DNA of 64,000 nucleotides from Thermococcus sp. SY098. Its GTDB lineage: Archaea > Methanobacteriota_B > Thermococci > Thermococcales > Thermococcaceae. The stretch lies in contig NZ_CP141821.1 of NCBI RefSeq assembly GCF_035621495.1, positions 400,760 through 464,759 on the forward strand, in the 5' to 3' direction. Under the pieces are notes generated by a model. That model was given only the letters and a program-made list of their open reading frames with translations, made no database searches and was not told the origin of the DNA. The translations under genes and the position numbers were made by a program. Positions within the stretch are counted from its first letter, which is position 1. Each line of letters opens with the position of its first letter. Below, piece by piece: positions 28,909-37,837 of the stretch.

Positions 28909-30128
28909 CACTAATTGTGGGAAAGATCGGCGACAACATAATGGAGCGTTTTGAGCTTCCAGGTGTTTTGGGAGAAATTCTGATGGGTATGATTTTGGGA
29001 AATCTGATATATTTTGGAGTTATCAGTCCAGAGTACTTAACTTTACATTCAAATGAAACTTTCGAGTTTTTGGCAAAGCTTGGGATAATCTTCCTGCTCT
29101 TCTTAGGAGGTCTTGACACTGACATGGAAATGATCAAGAGAACCGGAAAAGTTGCCACAGTTTCCACGCTTATGGGTGTATTCGCCCCCTTGATAATGGG
29201 GTATTTTGGGCTTAAGTTAATGGGATATCCCTCCAGAGAGGCATTTGCTGGCGGTGTTCTGCTTACAGCAACGAGCATTGGGATAACAGTTAGGGTCATG
29301 ATGGATTTAGGGGTCTTGAGGAGTGAAGTGGGTGCAGCGTCGCTGAGTGCAAGTGTTATGGACGACTTTCTGGGTATAGCACTGATAATATTTGCCGTTG
29401 GAACAGGGAGCATTTTGGGACTAATCGGAAAGATGACTGCTTTCTTTATAATCACAGGTGTCGTCGCATGGTATTCCATCGATAAATACATCCGATTCTC
29501 TGAATGGCTTCATGTAGAAAAAGGTGTCTTGGCTATGGTTCTGGCGTTAATGTTCCTCTTCTCCGCACTTGCCGAAAAATGGTTTGCAGCTGCAATTGAA
29601 GGTGCATTTATGGCGGGCCTTGTTTTATCAAAGCTCCCAGAAGGGAGAAAAATAGCAGAGGACGTTAAAGCCATCGGATATGGTTTTCTAATCCCAATAT
29701 TTTTCGTGTACACAGGGGCAATGCTCGATTTAAAGGTTTTTATGAGTAGAGATGCACTGGCATTGGCAGCAGTTCTAACAAGTATAGCTGTAATAGGAAA
29801 GGTAGTCGGAAGGGGAATCGGAGCAATGATGATGGGCTGGAACTTTAAGAAGTCTCTTCAGATGGGAATAGGCTCCATCCCAAGAACTGAAGTTGCTCTC
29901 GTTGATCTCATGGTTGCAATTCACGGAGGTGCAATACCCCAAAGCGACGCACAAAAGTTTATAGCTGCAACACTTATTTTCATCACCGTTTCTGTGCTGA
30001 TAACTCCCCCACTGCTGAAATGGGCATTTAAAGAGGATGTTGAGAAAATGAAAAAGAAGAAAGCAGAAATTAGGAAAGAGAAGGTTAAAGAGACTAAGAG
30101 AAAAATTGCAGAGATCAGGCAGAGCTGA
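28872..30128 (+). CDS. CPA2-type Na+/H+ or K+/H+ antiporter
   Basis: A 418-residue protein with about 12 membrane helices. LPGVLGEILMGMILGN, FLLFLGGLDTDMEMI, SVMDDFLGIALIIFAVG (the ion-binding Asp pair region) and GIGSIPRTEVALV are the conserved CPA2 blocks (KefC/NapA group). The C-terminal 35 residues are a charged cytoplasmic helix with no KTN domain. It is co-translated with the CBS protein. The ion is not deducible with certainty. Confidence 0.85.
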   Translation: MEPEWILFTIGVALIVGKIGDNIMERFELPGVLGEILMGMILGNLIYFGVISPEYLTLHSNETFEFLAKLGIIFLLFLGGLDTDMEMIKRTGKVATVSTLMGVFAPLIMGYFGLKLMGYPSREAFAGGVLLTATSIGITVRVMMDLGVLRSEVGAASLSASVMDDFLGIALIIFAVGTGSILGLIGKMTAFFIITGVVAWYSIDKYIRFSEWLHVEKGVLAMVLALMFLFSALAEKWFAAAIEGAFMAGLVLSKLPEGRKIAEDVKAIGYGFLIPIFFVYTGAMLDLKVFMSRDALALAAVLTSIAVIGKVVGRGIGAMMMGWNFKKSLQMGIGSIPRTEVALVDLMVAIHGGAIPQSDAQKFIAATLIFITVSVLITPPLLKWAFKEDVEKMKKKKAEIRKEKVKETKRKIAEIRQS

Positions 30129-30465
30129 GCTTTTCTTTCACTTTTCTTTCAAATTCCACAAATGGAGGAACTCCAATAAACTCCACCTTGTTATTTATTA
30201 GAATTGTTGGTGTTCCCAAGATGTTATGCTCCATTGCCCTTTTTCTTCCTTCTGGAGTTGCAACGCTCAGCTCTTTTACTACCACTCCCGGGTATTTCTT
30301 AGCAATTTCTTGAGCCATTTGAAGTGCTATTGGACAGTAAGGACATGTTGGTGATGTGATAACTTCAATAACAACTCTTGGCCCTTTTGGTTTAATCTCA
30401 ACCATCCCCATTCTCTTCATGAGCTCAAGCATCTTTTTTCTTCTAATCATCTCAAGCTCGTCCAT
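30115..30465 (-). CDS. small thioredoxin/glutaredoxin-like protein
   Basis: A 116-residue thioredoxin-fold protein. SPTCPYCPIALQMAQEIAKKYPGV gives CPYC as active site and GTPTILIN the cis-Pro strand. The N-terminal 30 residues are a helical extension. It resembles half of protein-disulfide oxidoreductases of hyperthermophiles. The start at 30465 has GGTGGGA upstream. It lies beside the sulfur-transfer operon and may be part of its thiol chemistry, though about 57 bp separate them. Confidence 0.75.
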   Translation of the reverse strand: MDELEMIRRKKMLELMKRMGMVEIKPKGPRVVIEVITSPTCPYCPIALQMAQEIAKKYPGVVVKELSVATPEGRKRAMEHNILGTPTILINNKVEFIGVPPFVEFERKVKEKLSSA

Positions 30466-30522: not shown

Positions 30523-31173
30523 TCATGATTCCGTAAATTCAATCTCTAAATCAACATCAAGTCCTTCAAAAGCTTCTCTTATCTGTTCTTCGAAAACTTC
30601 AGCCTCTGGACTGTTTTTTGGAATATTAAGCATTATCTTAACTTTTTTGCCTTCAATCCTGCATCCCTTATACTTATCCCCCTTAAGAACACTTTCCCCA
30701 GTAAGCGGGTCAATAACCGCTGCAAGAATAAGTTTGACAAATTTCTCATCGATCTGTCTTCTTCCCGTAATAACATCCCATTTAGCCAATGCCTGCTTAA
30801 GTCCTTCAGCTGCTAAAACTGCACAGTGATATTTGATCTGAGGCAGACCTCCGAGCTCCTCCACGATATCTTTAAATTTAATTTTCTTAGCTTCTTCAAC
30901 AGTCTTTCCTATGATCATTTCCGTAAGCACTGAAGCAGTTGCAATATTTGCAGCACAACCATAGCTCCTAAATTTGGCATCAACTATTTTATCATTTTCA
31001 ATCTTTAAATAGAGCTTTATCATGTCTCCACATGCTGGACTGCCAGCTTTTGCCGTGACGCTTGGATTCTCTATTTCCCCAACATTTTTTGGATGAAGAA
31101 AATAGTAAAGAACCTTTCTTGAGTAGCCTATCCTCTTTTTCTCGTCCCATTTCCTGCCATTAAATCTTTCCAT
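30523..31173 (-). CDS. IscU-type Fe-S scaffold with C-terminal extension
   Basis: A 216-residue protein. Residues about 15-140 are IscU/NifU-N: PACGDMIKL, YGCAANIATA and YHCAVLAAEG carry the three cluster-binding cysteines and the adjacent Asp is kept. Residues about 150-216 (ILAAVIDPLTGESVLKG ... EGKKVKIMLNIPKNSPEAEVF) resemble the MIP18/DUF59 fold used in Fe-S targeting, though its Cys is missing. It lies directly downstream of tusA-like and the cysteine-desulfurase-like genes, so this is a sulfur/Fe-S operon. GGTGAG precedes the ATG. Confidence 0.8.
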   Translation of the reverse strand: MERFNGRKWDEKKRIGYSRKVLYYFLHPKNVGEIENPSVTAKAGSPACGDMIKLYLKIENDKIVDAKFRSYGCAANIATASVLTEMIIGKTVEEAKKIKFKDIVEELGGLPQIKYHCAVLAAEGLKQALAKWDVITGRRQIDEKFVKLILAAVIDPLTGESVLKGDKYKGCRIEGKKVKIMLNIPKNSPEAEVFEEQIREAFEGLDVDLEIEFTES

Positions 31174-31395
31174 TTATCTCACCTTTTTTACAACAATTCT
31201 CCAAACACCGTCCTTCTCATCAATTTCAAGGATTTCCTGCCCAGTTTCGTCTGCTGCCAGTGCTATCTCCCCCTTGCTTAGCTCATGAGTTCCGACAATT
31301 TCAATTATTTCTCCAACCTTGGCTTTTCTCAACGCCTTTCTGAATTCATTAAGCGGAATTGGGCATTCCTTTCCGATGACATTGATCTTTATCAT
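31174..31395 (-). CDS. TusA/SirA-like sulfur carrier
   Basis: A 73-residue TusA-family protein. KECPIPLNEFRKALRKAKVGEIIEI has the invariant Cys-Pro-x-Pro whose cysteine carries persulfide sulfur. The ATG overlaps the stop of the desulfurase-like gene by 4 nt and the next gene begins at once after it. It probably relays sulfur between the two neighbours. Confidence 0.88.
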   Translation of the reverse strand: MIKINVIGKECPIPLNEFRKALRKAKVGEIIEIVGTHELSKGEIALAADETGQEILEIDEKDGVWRIVVKKVR

Positions 31396-32540
31396 CTCTT
31401 CCCACCATAAATGCTGATTTCCCTCAGTTTTTCAACGACATCCTTTATAATCTCATATGCTTTTACTATCTCCTCTTCAGTTGTCCACTTGCTTAAGCTC
31501 AGCCTCACCGAACCATGAGCATCTTCAAATGAACCTCCGATGGCTCTAATTACGTGACTCGGCAAAAGTTCTTGCGAATAGCATGCGGAACCAGTTGAGA
31601 ACACTAACCCTCTTAGATCACAGTGAAGCAAAATGCTCTCTCCTTCAACGTAAGCGAATGAAACGTTTACATTATTGGGAAGCCTTTTCTCTCCCCTTGG
31701 GCCGTTGAGCTTTGTATCGGGAATACCTAATAGCAAGTCAATTAGCTTATCCCTAAGCTTTGCCATTCTCTTAGCGTCATCATAGTTTATCAACTCTACA
31801 GCCTTTCCAAAGCCAGCTATTGCTGGAACATTGATCATTCCCGGTCTTATCCCCCTTTCTCTCACATCTCCATCGAGAAGAGGTTTGAGTTTAACTCCAT
31901 CCCTTATATAAAGTGCGGCAATTCCTTTAGGGCCGTGGATTAAGTGGGCGGTAATGCTCATTAAGTCAACATCCAGCTTTTTGACATCAATTTTGACTTT
32001 ACCAAAAGCATGGTTTGCATCCAAATAGAATAGGGCACCTTTATCGTGGACTATTTCAGATATTGCTTTGATATCTTGAATAGTTCCAATTTCAAAGTTT
32101 CCTAAGTGAGTGGCGAGGAGAATTGCATCTTTTAAGTTGCCCTGGAGATCATCAAGGTTGATAAAACCCTCTCTATCAACACTAACTTCATAAGTTTCGA
32201 AGCCCCATTCTCCTAATCTTTTGATTGTGTTAAGAATCGCTTTTCTCTCAATTTTGCTTGCCAGAACTTTTCCTTTACTCTTAGCCCATGCTATACCTTT
32301 TATCGCCAAATTATCCGCTTCAGTTTCATCGGAGACAAAGATAATTTCCTCTGGAGAGGCATTTATTTCCCTCGCTATTATCTCTCTTGCTTTTTCAACG
32401 GCTTCTCTGGATTCTTCGTCAAATACATGTCCAAATTCCCCTCCAGGAGTTCCATATTTTTTTTCAAAATATTCAAGCATTACTTTAATTACCTCTGGAT
32501 CTGGCTTAGTCGTGTTTGCATTGTCTAAATAAATAACCAT
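31392..32540 (-). CDS. cysteine-desulfurase homologue lacking the PLP lysine
   Basis: A 382-residue IscS/NifS-fold protein recognised along its whole length (EIGTIQDIKAISEIVHDKGALFYLDA; GSACYSQELLPSHVIRAIGG with the sulfur-carrying Cys; GSVRLSLSKWTTEEEI). Several cofactor residues are changed. The Schiff-base Lys in the usual SAHKIxGPKG is Leu (TAHLIHGPKG). The PLP-stacking His is Arg (KIERKAIL). The SGATE phosphate loop is SDETE, and the DAxQ Gln is His. It may therefore not bind PLP and could act as a sulfur carrier or scaffold. The start at 32540 follows GGTGA. Confidence 0.8.
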   Translation of the reverse strand: MVIYLDNANTTKPDPEVIKVMLEYFEKKYGTPGGEFGHVFDEESREAVEKAREIIAREINASPEEIIFVSDETEADNLAIKGIAWAKSKGKVLASKIERKAILNTIKRLGEWGFETYEVSVDREGFINLDDLQGNLKDAILLATHLGNFEIGTIQDIKAISEIVHDKGALFYLDANHAFGKVKIDVKKLDVDLMSITAHLIHGPKGIAALYIRDGVKLKPLLDGDVRERGIRPGMINVPAIAGFGKAVELINYDDAKRMAKLRDKLIDLLLGIPDTKLNGPRGEKRLPNNVNVSFAYVEGESILLHCDLRGLVFSTGSACYSQELLPSHVIRAIGGSFEDAHGSVRLSLSKWTTEEEIVKAYEIIKDVVEKLREISIYGGKR

Positions 32541-32604: not shown

Positions 32605-32994
32605 CTATCCGAATAAATCTATGCATATCCTGCATTTTGATGGATCTAATTCAGGATCAATCTTCTCATGAATAGGGCAGAGATAACCTTTCCCAAGCAT
32701 TTTAAGGGCAATTTCAACGAGTTCTGCATGTATCTGGTATTCTGTAAGCTTTTCTTTTATTATTTTATCTGCAAGTTCTTTCAGGTAATGATCTATATCC
32801 TGAAAGTTAGAGATGTCAATAAAACTTCCCCTGTTCATTCTTAAATACCTTGAAACAGCCGATTGGGTAATATGTAGAAGTTCAGCGACCTGAGTTTGAG
32901 TCAATTTATGATCTCTGTACAGAATCTCAACTAATCTCCTCCTAAGTGAAGGATATACATACTTTGAGGCAACTTCGAAAGCATTTATCTTCAT
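32605..32994 (-). CDS. HTH regulator with C-terminal Cys cluster
   Basis: A 129-residue protein. Residues about 8-55 form a helix-turn-helix (LTQTQVAELLHITQSAVSRYLRMNRG). The C-terminus carries CPIHEKIDPELDPSKCRIC, three cysteines and a His that could hold an Fe-S cluster or metal. The mRNA looks leaderless: TATA TTATATAT lies about 27 bp upstream. A copy of the TATGACA palindrome sits between TATA and start, implying autorepression. It faces hcp and is the natural candidate regulator of the flavodiiron/hcp genes. Confidence 0.78.
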   Translation of the reverse strand: MKINAFEVASKYVYPSLRRRLVEILYRDHKLTQTQVAELLHITQSAVSRYLRMNRGSFIDISNFQDIDHYLKELADKIIKEKLTEYQIHAELVEIALKMLGKGYLCPIHEKIDPELDPSKCRICIDLFG

Positions 32995-33344: not shown

Positions 33345-34721
33345 ATGGATATGGCGATACGCGTTCCGGAAACGTTTGATATGCTCTGCAACCAGTGCTC
33401 GATGAGTTTGGCGGGAGGGTGTACTATAAGGGGAGTCTGCGGCAAAGACCCCGACCTCAACTCGCTCCAGGAGGCCCTGCTCTACGGCATAAAGGGAACC
33501 TCCGCTTACTACTACCACGCCCTTGAGGTCGGCTACGACGACCCGAGGATAGGCCACTTTTTGGCTGAGGCCCTCTACTCGACGCTCACCAACGTCAACT
33601 TTGACAAGAACCGCTTCCTTGAGCTCGTCCTTGAGAACGGAAGGGTCCACCTTGAGGCCATGAAGCTCCTCGATAAAGCCTACGTTGAGACCTTCGGAAG
33701 GCCTGAGCCCGTTGAAGTCCCGACCGGAACTGCGGAAGGACACGGTATACTCGTCACCGGCCACAGCTACAAAGCCCTTTATGAGCTCCTGAGACAGATC
33801 GAGGAGATGGGCCTTGAGGAGGAGCTCAAAGTCTACACCCACGCGGAGATGTTTCCAGCACATGCATACCCCGAGCTGAGGAAGTTCAAAGCCCTCTACG
33901 GTAACTGGGGAGGTTCATGGCTCTACCAGAAGAAGGAATTTGCGGAGTTCCCGGGCGTCATTCTGGGAACAAGCAACTGTGTCCAGCAGCCCACGAAGGC
34001 TTACGCCGATAGAATCTTCACCGTTGGAATAGCGGGCCTTGAGGGGGTCCCCCACATAGAGGACTACAACTTCGAGCCGCTCATAAAGCGTGCCCTTGAG
34101 ACGCCGAAGATGCAGGCTTACGACGGCGGAAAGCTCCTCACCGGCTTCCACCACACCAACGTTTTGGCAATGAGGGACAAGCTGATAGAGCTAATCCAGG
34201 AGGGCAAGATAAGGCACATCTTCGTCGTGGGCGGCTGTGATACACCGCACAAGGGCATGGGCTACTACGAGAGGCTCACCGAGCTGATTCCAAAGGATGC
34301 GCTGATACTCTCCGCTGCATGCGGCAAGTTCCGCTACAACGCGAGGGACTACGGCACCATTGAGGGCATTCCAAGGTTCCTCGACTTCGGTCAGTGTAAC
34401 AACGTGTACTCAATAATCGAGATTGCAATAGCACTCGCGAACGAGCTCGGAACCGACGTGAACTCCCTGCCGGTGAGCATAGTCCTGAGCTGGATGGAGC
34501 AGAAAGCCATAGCGATACTCTACTCGCTCCTCTACCTGGGAATCAAGGGCATCTACATCGGACCAAAGCCGCCGGAGTTCATGACTCCCAACGTGTTTGA
34601 AATCCTCAGGAGGCAGTTTGACCTCAGATTAATAAGCGATCCAGAAAGAGATTTAAGAGAGATGCTCAACAAAGGCGTAAAAATAGAAGAAGGCTCCGCC
34701 CTTGCAGAGGAGCTCGACTGA
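33345..34721 (+). CDS. hcp: hybrid cluster protein (hydroxylamine reductase)
   Basis: A 458-residue Hcp (prismane protein). CNQCSMSLAGGCTIRGVCGK binds the first Fe-S cluster. Downstream NCVQQP, GGCDTPHKG, SAACGKFRYN and DFGQCNN provide the hybrid-cluster ligands. Hcp reduces hydroxylamine in vitro and NO in vivo in bacteria. GGAGG precedes the ATG (33345; ATG 33351 is also possible). Base composition is unusual: the line at 33421 is 62% GC, against about 38% for typical neighbouring lines, and it falls back to about 38% after position 34620. This suggests import from a GC-richer relative with the native 3' end kept. Confidence 0.93.
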   Translation: MDMAIRVPETFDMLCNQCSMSLAGGCTIRGVCGKDPDLNSLQEALLYGIKGTSAYYYHALEVGYDDPRIGHFLAEALYSTLTNVNFDKNRFLELVLENGRVHLEAMKLLDKAYVETFGRPEPVEVPTGTAEGHGILVTGHSYKALYELLRQIEEMGLEEELKVYTHAEMFPAHAYPELRKFKALYGNWGGSWLYQKKEFAEFPGVILGTSNCVQQPTKAYADRIFTVGIAGLEGVPHIEDYNFEPLIKRALETPKMQAYDGGKLLTGFHHTNVLAMRDKLIELIQEGKIRHIFVVGGCDTPHKGMGYYERLTELIPKDALILSAACGKFRYNARDYGTIEGIPRFLDFGQCNNVYSIIEIAIALANELGTDVNSLPVSIVLSWMEQKAIAILYSLLYLGIKGIYIGPKPPEFMTPNVFEILRRQFDLRLISDPERDLREMLNKGVKIEEGSALAEELD

Positions 34722-34723
34722 GC

Positions 34724-35209
34724 TCATTCTTTCAATTTTTTAAGCTTTTCTAATAGTTCCCTGAACTTCTCATCCGAAAGATTGCCCAGTTCTTTGGCTT
34801 CTTTTAGTGTTATTGTCCTTGCAAGGGTCCTTCTCAGGGTCTCATCTTTGAGTGGGGTGAAGCCGTACTCGATGAGTACTTCAAGAGCTTCAGGATACCT
34901 CTCTATGAGCATCCCGACGTTTGTGTTCTCGTTTATCTCGATTTCTTTTGCGCACTCCACATCATCAAGTCCTGAAATTTCCTTGGCACTCCCATCGTTC
35001 CATATCCTCAAGATGTAGGCATCTCCAGCTTTTTTCAGCTCGTGTCTATAGCCCGCTTCCTCAAGCTTTGAAATGATACCTTTAAAGGGCTTGTCGCCTA
35101 TTGCCTCGATCCCCTCTCCTTCTTTCAGATCCTTCAATGCCTCAACTATCCTCACAGCGGGTTCCGGAGGGTTTAGCCCCCTCAGGTCCAGCACAGCTTT
35201 AATCTCCAT
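34724..35209 (-). CDS. DUF2249-DUF1858 protein
   Basis: A 161-residue two-domain protein. Residues 1-70 are TusA-like DUF2249 (LDLRGLNPPEPAVRIVEALKDL), without the TusA cysteine. Residues about 90-140 are DUF1858 (NVGMLIERYPEALEVLIEYGF), the domain found at the N-terminus of ScdA/RIC di-iron repair proteins. It probably belongs to nitrosative-stress or Fe-S repair systems, fitting its neighbours hcp and flavodiiron protein. The start at 35209 follows GGTGA. A palindromic operator overlaps its TATA box. Confidence 0.75.
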   Translation of the reverse strand: MEIKAVLDLRGLNPPEPAVRIVEALKDLKEGEGIEAIGDKPFKGIISKLEEAGYRHELKKAGDAYILRIWNDGSAKEISGLDDVECAKEIEINENTNVGMLIERYPEALEVLIEYGFTPLKDETLRRTLARTITLKEAKELGNLSDEKFRELLEKLKKLKE

Positions 35210-35229
35210 TCGCTTCACCATAAACTTAT

Positions 35230-35245
35230 AATGACAAGTGTCATA
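35230..35245. promoter_or_regulatory. operator 4 (DUF2249-DUF1858 promoter)
   Basis: AATGACAAGTGTCATA differs from the palindrome only at the first base. It overlaps the minus-strand TATA element (TTTATAT, about 35242-35248) of the DUF2249-DUF1858 gene. Confidence 0.7.
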
Positions 35246-35292
35246 TAAACTTTGCTGGACATGAATGGGTAGAAAGGTTTAAAAGTATTGAA

Positions 35293-35308
35293 TATGACAT
35301 ACGTCATG
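35293..35308. promoter_or_regulatory. operator 5 (flavodiiron promoter)
   Basis: TATGACATACGTCATG keeps a perfect left arm and five of seven bases in the right. It lies between the TATA box (GTTTAAAAG, about 35277-35285) and the predicted start of the flavodiiron operon. Confidence 0.65.
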
Positions 35309-35321
35309 AAGGTGTGTAATT

Positions 35322-36503
35322 ATGAAAGCTGTAAAAATTGTTGAAGATGTTTACTGGGTTGGAGTTAAAGACTGGAACAGGAGGATTTTTGATTCTCTAA
35401 TTCCCCTTCCAGAAGGAACTTCCTATAATGCCTATCTGGTTGTCGGGAGAGAAAAAACCGCCCTCATAGATACCGTAAATCCTGGTTTTGAGAGGGAGCT
35501 TGAAGAAAAAATAAACGAAATCGTAGATGTGGCCGATATTGATTACATAGTGATGAATCACGCCGAGCCCGACCATTCGGGTGCAATTCCATACCTGCTG
35601 GAGAGGAACGAAAAGGTCATCCTCATTGCAACCGAAAAAGGCGCGGACATGGCTAAAGCATACTATGATGTCCCCGATGAGAGGATTATGGTGGTAAAGG
35701 ATGACGACACCGTTCCCCTTGGTGGAAAGACCCTCAGGTTCATAGAGGCACCTTGGCTCCACTGGCCGGAGACAATGTTTACATATCTGGTGGAAGATAA
35801 GATACTCTTTTCATGCGACTTCTTTGGAGCCCACCTTGCTGGGGGCTTTTACGACGATGACGTGCCCGACCTTCTAACGCACGCCCAGAGGTACTTCGGG
35901 GAGATAATGATGCCCTTCTCGGCCATGGCGAAGAAAGCACTCAAAAAGATCGAGGGGCTTGAGATTGATATAATCGCTCCGAGCCACGGCCCGATATACA
36001 GGAATCCTGCGAGAATAATCGAGGTGTATAAAAAGTGGAGCAGTGGAGAGACTAAGGAAAAGGTTATCATAGCTTATGTCAGCATGTGGGGGGCAAACGA
36101 GATAATGGTAAGGGAGCTCGCGGCTCTTCTGACCGCTGAGGGAATAGATGTTAAGGTCCACAACCTCGTGAACGCGGACATAGGGGAAATCGCCAAAGAC
36201 CTTGTGGACTCAAGGATCATAGTTTTAGCAGCTCCTACAGTCCTTGGGGGTGCACACCCCCTTGCTATCTATGCCGCATACCTCGTAAAGGCACTCAGAC
36301 CGCCCGCAAAATATGTGGTGATAATAGGCTCCTATGGGTGGCACGGGCGAAGTAAAGATTCCCTCCTTGAAGTGCTGAAAGGCTCGAATATAGAGCTCCT
36401 CGGGAGCCTCGAGGTTCATGCGAGGCCGAAGAAGGAAGATTATGAAAAGCTCCGCAGGCTTGCGCTTCTTATTCAAGAAAAGGTTAGAGGTGATGCTGAA
36501 TGA
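35322..36503 (+). CDS. flavodiiron protein (NO/O2 reductase)
   Basis: A 393-residue class A flavodiiron protein. The beta-lactamase-like domain holds HAEPDH (about residue 81, di-iron ligands), with further ligands at LHWPETMF, CDFFGAH and SHGPIYR. The C-terminal flavodoxin domain (VIIAYVSMWGANEIM ... GSYGWHGRSKD) binds FMN. These enzymes reduce O2 to water or NO to N2O. Its stop overlaps the next start (ATGA). It is first in the operon flavodiiron, DUF438, cupin, M24-like. Confidence 0.93.
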   Translation: MKAVKIVEDVYWVGVKDWNRRIFDSLIPLPEGTSYNAYLVVGREKTALIDTVNPGFERELEEKINEIVDVADIDYIVMNHAEPDHSGAIPYLLERNEKVILIATEKGADMAKAYYDVPDERIMVVKDDDTVPLGGKTLRFIEAPWLHWPETMFTYLVEDKILFSCDFFGAHLAGGFYDDDVPDLLTHAQRYFGEIMMPFSAMAKKALKKIEGLEIDIIAPSHGPIYRNPARIIEVYKKWSSGETKEKVIIAYVSMWGANEIMVRELAALLTAEGIDVKVHNLVNADIGEIAKDLVDSRIIVLAAPTVLGGAHPLAIYAAYLVKALRPPAKYVVIIGSYGWHGRSKDSLLEVLKGSNIELLGSLEVHARPKKEDYEKLRRLALLIQEKVRGDAE

Positions 36504-37837
36504 CCGAACTCCTAAAAAACCGCGAATATAAGAAAGAAAAAATGAAAGAACTTTTGAAGAAAATCCACAGCGGTGAAGATGTTGAAAAGCTCAAGGAGGA
36601 GTTTAAGGAACTCTTAAGGAGCATCTCCCCGCTGGAAATACCCCTTATTGAGCAGGAGCTCGTTAAAGAGGGTATCTCTGCGAGGGACATAGCTAAGATG
36701 TGCGACATCCATGTTGAGCTCTTCAGAGAAGCAGTCGCTGGTGCTGAAAAGGAAGAAATAAAGGATATTCCCCCTGGACATCCTCTCCATACGCTCTATG
36801 AGGAGAACAGGGAGATAATGAAAGATGCGGAAATGCTGAACCTCTATGCATCCACTCTCGCAAACACGAAGGATGAGAAGATGAGACAGGAAATTCTCGG
36901 TGTTCTCAAAGGAATAGCCAACCAGCTCAGAGCTGTTGGTTTTACCCACTACAACAGGGAAGAGATGCTCATCTTTCCATACCTTGAGAGGAGAGGAATT
37001 ACAGCAGTTCCAACGGTTCTATGGACAAAACATGATGAGATAAGAGCGATGATAAAGCAGCTAATTGAAATATTAAACAGAGAAAACAAAATGGAGTGGG
37101 AGCAATTTGTAAGTAAAGTGAAAGAAAAAGCCTCAGAACTTTCAAGAGCGTTAGTTGACATAGTGTTCAGGGAAAACAACATACTATATCCAACATTGAA
37201 AGCCCTGCTCTCCGAGGGGGAGTGGGTTGCCATTAAGCAGCAGGAAGAGACAATGGGGTATTACAAAGTTAAGCCCGGAGATGAGTGGAAGCCAAGAGCA
37301 AAGCCTCTTCATCCTTATGAGATTGACCCAACCTTAACAGCTGAACAGATTTTGAGCTTACCAAAGGAAGTCCAGATGGCACTGAGGGGACAGAAGCTTG
37401 AAGGAGACAGAACTAAAGTAAAGAGGGAAGGTGACTTAGAGTTAGACACTGGATATCTCTCACCAAAAGAAATAAACGCGATTTTCAAGCATCTTCCAGT
37501 TGATATAACTTTCATAGACAAAGATGATAGGGTGAGGTTTTTCTCAGGCGGGGACAGAATATTCACAAGAACGCCCTCAGTTATCGGAAGACCTGTACAG
37601 CTCTGCCATCCACCGAAAAGTGTCCATATAGTTAACAAGATTCTCAAGGCTTTTAAGGAGGGCAAAAAAGACGTCGCAGAGTTCTGGATTCAGATGGGGG
37701 GAAGATTTATACATATCCGCTATTTTGCGGTCAGAAATGAAAATGGAGAATACTTGGGAACACTTGAAGTTGTTCAGGATGTGACTGAAATCAGAAAACT
37801 TGAAGGAGAGAAAAGGCTTTTAGACTGGAGGGACTAA
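36500..37837 (+). CDS. DUF438-hemerythrin-PAS protein
   Basis: A 445-residue three-part protein. DUF438 is at about 1-85 (KEKMKELLKKIHSGEDVEKLKEEF). A hemerythrin-like helical bundle lies at about 90-250, with candidate di-iron ligands in HPLHTLYEEN, HYNREEMLIFPYLE and TKHDEIRAM. A PAS domain lies at about 325-440 (HLPVDITFIDKDDRVRFFSGGDRIFTR). It likely senses or handles O2/NO at the di-iron or PAS site; no output domain follows, so it is not a typical sensor kinase. It overlaps the flavodiiron gene by 4 nt. Confidence 0.85.
   Translation: MTELLKNREYKKEKMKELLKKIHSGEDVEKLKEEFKELLRSISPLEIPLIEQELVKEGISARDIAKMCDIHVELFREAVAGAEKEEIKDIPPGHPLHTLYEENREIMKDAEMLNLYASTLANTKDEKMRQEILGVLKGIANQLRAVGFTHYNREEMLIFPYLERRGITAVPTVLWTKHDEIRAMIKQLIEILNRENKMEWEQFVSKVKEKASELSRALVDIVFRENNILYPTLKALLSEGEWVAIKQQEETMGYYKVKPGDEWKPRAKPLHPYEIDPTLTAEQILSLPKEVQMALRGQKLEGDRTKVKREGDLELDTGYLSPKEINAIFKHLPVDITFIDKDDRVRFFSGGDRIFTRTPSVIGRPVQLCHPPKSVHIVNKILKAFKEGKKDVAEFWIQMGGRFIHIRYFAVRNENGEYLGTLEVVQDVTEIRKLEGEKRLLDWRD

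Follow-up and report, generated by a model that had tools for sequence, protein, structure and literature searches.

The 64,000-nucleotide stretch of the Thermococcus sp. SY098 genome analysed here and called the window below (contig NZ_CP141821.1, assembly GCF_035621495.1, positions 400,760 to 464,759 of the forward strand) encodes a homolog of the cysteine desulfurases IscS and NifS in which leucine occupies the place of the PLP Schiff-base lysine and the mobile cysteine is kept. The purifying selection on its gene, the retention of the cysteine in 92/92 lysine-less relatives, the loss of the PLP-contact glutamine in 88 of these 92, the intact ligands of the adjacent IscU and the existence of archaeal genomes where no lysine-bearing desulfurase was detected all support a conserved protein that works with TusA and IscU and does not act as a PLP-lysine desulfurase. 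The reading put forward here, to which we give an even chance, is that of a protein descended from a class I desulfurase and independent of PLP, in which sulfur borne by TusA would pass via Cys320 to an IscU-DUF59 scaffold without PLP. The protein and its altered positions are as follows.

31392..32540, minus strand: lysine-less IscS/NifS-like protein, 382 aa (translation; PF00266, 2.4e-59; AlphaFold pLDDT 92.6)
32319..32333, minus strand: SDETE where SGATE is expected (alignment)
32244..32246, minus strand: Arg99 at the position of the PLP-stacking histidine (alignment)
32010..32012, minus strand: His177 at the position of the DAxQ glutamine (alignment)
31941..31943, minus strand: Leu200, codon TTA, at the position of the PLP Schiff-base lysine (alignment; codon check)
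31581..31583, minus strand: Cys320, the persulfide or cluster-ligand cysteine (codon check; Cys in 92/92 lysine-less proteins)

The reading frame starts with ATG at 32540 and stops at 31392 of the minus strand, while the opposite strand contains many stops. The fold is that of a class V aminotransferase, as revealed by the PF00266 match and by TM values of 0.92-0.95 against IscS/Nfs1 structures. Structure prediction, which the sequence-only reading had suggested as a check, gave a confident model that superposes on Archaeoglobus fulgidus IscS with an rmsd of 1.3-1.4 Å; the solved structures nearest to it are A. fulgidus IscS 2 and, after it, those of E. coli IscS and human Nfs1. The protein scores below all NCBIfam cut-offs, including those of the NifS equivalog (392.6 against 530.75 bits) and the IscS equivalog (343.2 against 643.2).

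The alignment with E. coli IscS and the codon check confirmed the residue changes first read from the translation: SGATE has become SDETE, TEH has become IER, DATQ has become DANH and GHKIYGPKG has become AHLIHGPKG. The Schiff-base lysine, the stacking histidine and the DAxQ glutamine of canonical IscS/NifS are therefore all missing, whereas the fold, the active-site Asp and Asn, the partnership with IscU and the cysteine loop are common to both. The loop, which had been described as kept, is indeed present as STGSAC320YS, corresponding to SSGSACTS of E. coli. The usual chemistry of PLP bound through a Schiff-base lysine is, judging by these residues, unavailable to the window protein.

The simultaneous absence of several catalytic residues might be taken for a sign of gene decay or of an error in sequencing or assembly. 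These explanations are ruled out by the same Leu in ten genomes, by the variation of its codon and by dN/dS, and we regard their probability as negligible. The alignment places Leu at the lysine position in 10/10 Thermococcales orthologues found, the Leu codon varies among them by synonymous changes only (TTA, TTG, CTA), and dN/dS of about 0.04-0.08 points to purifying selection, so the earlier argument against random decay is borne out. Of 94 Thermococcales genomes, 84 lack the protein, among them every genome of genera g3, g4 and g5. Orthologues with a normal lysine, which would speak against the sequence-only reading, do not occur in Thermococcales (none among ten); they do occur farther off in the wider clade, at loci L218, L190 and L207 (53, 50 and 45% identity), so the ancestral enzyme probably had the lysine and lost it later. 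The L190 protein (1471-2646) retains the lysine and already carries SDEVE and IER, changed like those of the window protein, and is a possible intermediate.

The neighbouring genes form a compact operon with the gene described above.

32605..32994, minus strand: HTH regulator with C-terminal CxxH...CxxC, the upstream gene (weak HTH matches; conserved in L137)
31174..31395, minus strand: TusA sulfur carrier with CPIP motif (PF01206, 6.3e-18; overlaps the stop of the IscS-like gene)
30523..31173, minus strand: IscU scaffold fused to a C-terminal DUF59, 216 aa (PF01592, 1.1e-40; AlphaFold pLDDT 90.3)
30526..30762 (approximate limits), minus strand: DUF59 / FeS_assembly_P extension of IscU (PF01883)
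30115..30465, minus strand: thioredoxin-like protein with CPYC, the next gene in genera g1 and g2 (PF13192, 1.7e-9)

The IscS-like gene and tusA overlap, the start of the latter lying within the stop of the former, and iscU starts directly after the stop of tusA. The assignment of TusA is based on the family match and on the cysteine of the CPxP motif, which reads CPIP in the translation. In IscU, the cluster ligands C48, D50, C73, H116 and C117 are invariant in 16/16 sequences, and the N-terminal part superposes on A. fulgidus IscU (4eb5_C) at 0.9 Å, as expected of a normal scaffold. The last 75-80 of its 216 residues make up the DUF59 extension: PF01883 matches this part in 11/11 family members (best 5.6e-14), the window sequence itself reaching 1.7e-4 and 22.2 bits, 1.3 bits under the cut-off of 23.5, and a profile of the extension matches PDB 1uwd (1.9e-7). 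The IscU-DUF59 form was found in every member of the window protein's clade with a visible IscU gene. The IscS-TusA-IscU order is preserved in genera g1, g2 and g6, and the flanking genes of g6 differ from those of the other genera, which indicates that the triad is the conserved core.

Several observations concern the wider neighbourhood. The thioredoxin-like CPYC gene is conserved in L137 and does not stand beside the L138 copy. The HTH protein is possibly a metal or Fe-S sensor; Candidatus Terraquivivens encodes a similar protein in the vicinity of iscS and tusA (L052, 4168-4521). Nearby genes of stress type (window 33345-37837) encode a hybrid cluster protein, a TusA-DUF1858 protein (34724-35221), an ODP beta-lactamase-domain protein resembling a flavodiiron protein, and a DUF438-hemerythrin-PAS protein. 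Of these, the hybrid cluster, TusA-DUF1858 and DUF438 proteins also accompany the gene in L137, and not in L138.

The family at large was sampled as 239 distinct homologs from fetched loci plus three references, comprising 150 lysine-bearing and 92 lysine-less proteins, the latter from both archaea and bacteria. Eight residues replace the lysine in the 92 sequences: Val (26), Thr (18), Asp (16), Leu (14), Arg (8), Gln (7), His (2) and Ser (1). In a tree of 97 rows, calculated with the motif columns left out, the window protein belongs to a clade of 11 (support 100/99) that mixes Leu, Thr and the three Lys proteins mentioned above, and A. fulgidus IscS is placed in a separate Asp clade (97/84). 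The lysine state has changed at least 6 times on the best tree, and 3 of these changes are forced by well-supported branches. The AU test rejected a tree in which the lysine-less proteins arise once and make up one clade (p 1e-41).

The PLP-contact glutamine is kept in 135 of 150 lysine-bearing proteins against 4 of 92 lysine-less ones. The active-site Asp, the usual partner of the PLP ring nitrogen, and the Asn are invariant in all 92, a retention for which an empty pocket offers no explanation. These two residues, together with T197 (the Ser/Thr position) and H199 remaining in the window protein, would suit an enzyme with continued use of PLP, the cofactor being held via another lysine or with no Schiff base at all, for slow or different chemistry. 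Such a use is improbable in our estimation, considering that the lysine, the stacking histidine and the glutamine are all gone, that loss of the glutamine accompanies that of the lysine in almost all lineages, and that A. fulgidus IscS is reported as inactive although it has lost fewer of these residues (PMC7585200).

Lysine-less IscS proteins as such are already known, from A. fulgidus and, as PMC7585200 reports, in the form of M. acetivorans IscS1. A. fulgidus IscS 2 (PDB 4eb5, 4eb7, 4hvk; D199K mutant 4r5f) shares with the window protein about 42% identity, the fold, the replacement of the PLP lysine, the retained cysteine loop and the pairing with IscU. It differs in having Asp at the lysine site and in keeping the stacking histidine and SGATE, where the window protein has Leu, Arg99 and SDETE; the latter thus resembles the A. 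fulgidus type in the absent lysine, the kept cysteine and the neighbouring IscU, and departs from it in the missing Asp and in its clade. IscU of the solved A. fulgidus complex is also shorter (138 residues) and has no DUF59 extension. According to PMC7585200, citing Marinoni 2012 and Pagnier 2014, the Lys-to-Asp protein has no desulfurase activity and ligates the [2Fe-2S] cluster on IscU, its cysteine being a cluster ligand and not a sulfur donor.

By analogy, the window protein might have a structural and cluster-ligand role, with Cys320 completing the cluster site of IscU and free sulfide supplying the sulfur without a persulfide relay. This possibility is a substantial one and the main competitor of the relay, and we still hold it to be rather unlikely. 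The nearest solved relative is precisely the A. fulgidus IscS-IscU complex, and that IscS is described as an inactive desulfurase that acts as a ligand (PMC7585200); the Cys, Asp and His ligands of the window IscU are intact as well. A ligand-only role does not account for the TusA and DsrE genes linked to such copies in several lineages, and the A. fulgidus type belongs to the separate Asp clade. Sulfide-rich habitats, which count in favour of such a role, are common for anaerobes of this kind. The relay and the cluster-ligand role are mutually compatible, and the present data do not separate them.

It is the gene neighbourhood that draws attention to TusA. Within 1.5 kb, TusA is encoded near 49/53 archaeal lysine-less copies against 12/57 archaeal lysine-bearing copies, counts that leave out the A. 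fulgidus and Methanosarcina loci, and 8 of those 12 lysine-bearing copies share the locus with a lysine-less paralog. On the tree, well-supported branches give no more than 2 contrasts for this link, and all branches together 5, which is insufficient for a test; the link is not phylogenetically independent and should be treated as an association only. DsrE proteins adjoin the lysine-less loci L133, L035, L130 and L274; the gene row of L035 comprises DsrE, IscU-DUF59, TusA and two lysine-less IscS genes. A split-function heterodimer, with the lysine in one copy and the cysteine in the other, was considered for the two tandem copies of L035 and rejected there, since both are lysine-less and both have the cysteine. 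At L041, L064 and L065, IscU is followed by a second, degenerate IscU-like protein, and at L041 and L065 an Arg-type IscS, TusA and a Lys-type IscS stand upstream of this pair. TusA was found near none of the 26 copies of the Elusimicrobia Val group. Val-type IscS-IscU pairs of this group (L099, 8075-10463; L095, 4454-9021) adjoin oxygen-defence genes encoding a flavodiiron-like protein, desulfoferrodoxin, rubrerythrin, ferritin and a Fur-family regulator, which hints at a role in repair or stress.

The association with TusA and DsrE is best read, from gene content, as a sign that the window protein may carry sulfur of non-cysteine origin, as the sequence-only reading had proposed. The retained cysteine, the intact ligands of IscU and the adjacent tusA gene all fit a relay from TusA via Cys320 to IscU. 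In this relay, TusA would be loaded with sulfane sulfur coming from S0, polysulfide or thiosulfate via DsrE-like carriers where these are present, or possibly from SufS, and would hand it on to Cys320 of the lysine-less IscS. The mobile cysteine loop would then deliver the sulfur to IscU, or hold the nascent cluster on it, and the fused DUF59 domain may aid the onward transfer of the cluster. The sequences themselves show the lost lysine and other PLP contacts, the retained Cys320 and IscU ligands, the purifying selection, the operon and the gene associations; we infer the complete absence of PLP chemistry, the part of TusA as donor and not acceptor, the origin of the sulfur and the function of DUF59.

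As to other desulfurases, the genome of the window organism encodes a normal SufS with both Lys and Cys as well as SufB/D, so TusA could be loaded by SufS and carry cysteine-derived sulfur. The presence of SufS in the same genome, and of lysine-less copies beside lysine-bearing paralogs at some loci, would also agree with an inactive regulatory partner of SufS or another desulfurase, for example in a mixed dimer. SufS, however, is a class II protein encoded elsewhere in the genome, and several genomes have the lysine-less form and no partner desulfurase, which makes a regulatory partner very improbable, slightly more so than continued use of PLP. Lysine-bearing IscS/SufS gave no match at the thresholds used in the archaeal genomes G099, G100, G104 and G105 (94, 87, 97 and 96% complete). 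The same was true of G115, G142 and G143, of unknown completeness, where SufB/D were not found either; in all these cases, genes may be missing from draft genomes.

A cysteine-free supply is known in Thermococcales. T. kodakarensis, for which TK1990 is the sole desulfurase homolog described, has a route of sulfur into Fe-S clusters that requires S0 or polysulfide and needs no desulfurase (PMC12442378). Most Thermococcales genomes lack the lysine-less IscS, so it is not required for that route. The archaeal MIS system (MisS-MisU) is, like the window pair, a minimal combination of IscS and IscU, but MisS is described as a cysteine desulfurase (PMC12442378), while the window pair has no lysine, an IscU with DUF59 and TusA in the operon. 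In Metallosphaera, DsrE3A hands thiosulfate to TusA (PMC4175335); the dsrE3A-dsrE2B-tusA cluster resembles the loci studied here in its TusA family protein and in the DsrE proteins found beside related loci. That cluster is tied to sulfur oxidation and an hdr-like complex (PMC4175335), whereas the window TusA is tied to IscU. PMC7585200 also describes M. acetivorans IscS1-IscU1 (MA0808-MA0807), with an IscS1 that has STGSACFS and no lysine and an IscU1 of 24.2 kDa with C45/D47/C72/C116. This mass fits the size of IscU-DUF59 proteins, and by its published size and motifs the pair may belong with the clade of the window protein; the passages describing it name neither the residue replacing the lysine nor a DUF59 fusion. 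A literature search of partial coverage found no description of the IscU-DUF59 fusion or of the TusA association; the fused scaffold in the window protein's clade and the association of archaeal lysine-less copies with TusA appear to be new.

Taken more broadly, the data permit the tentative proposal, to which we give somewhat less than an even chance, of a recurrently evolved ISC pathway of anaerobes independent of cysteine and PLP. In such a pathway, inorganic sulfane sulfur would flow from TusA, acting with DsrE, to the lysine-less IscS and on to IscU, reversing the usual flow from IscS to TusA, and in some archaea it would be the sole IscS/SufS-type route of sulfur into Fe-S clusters. The inactive IscS of A. 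fulgidus had seemed an oddity; such proteins recur in several lineages, always with the cysteine retained, so not every IscS-like gene should be annotated as a cysteine desulfurase. The position of archaeal lysine-less IscS genes, mostly beside TusA, turns the transfer of sulfur from TusA through Cys320 to IscU into a concrete testable question, and M. acetivorans, with IscS1-IscU1, seems to offer a case open to genetics. In the window organism itself, Fe-S clusters may form without the breakdown of cysteine.
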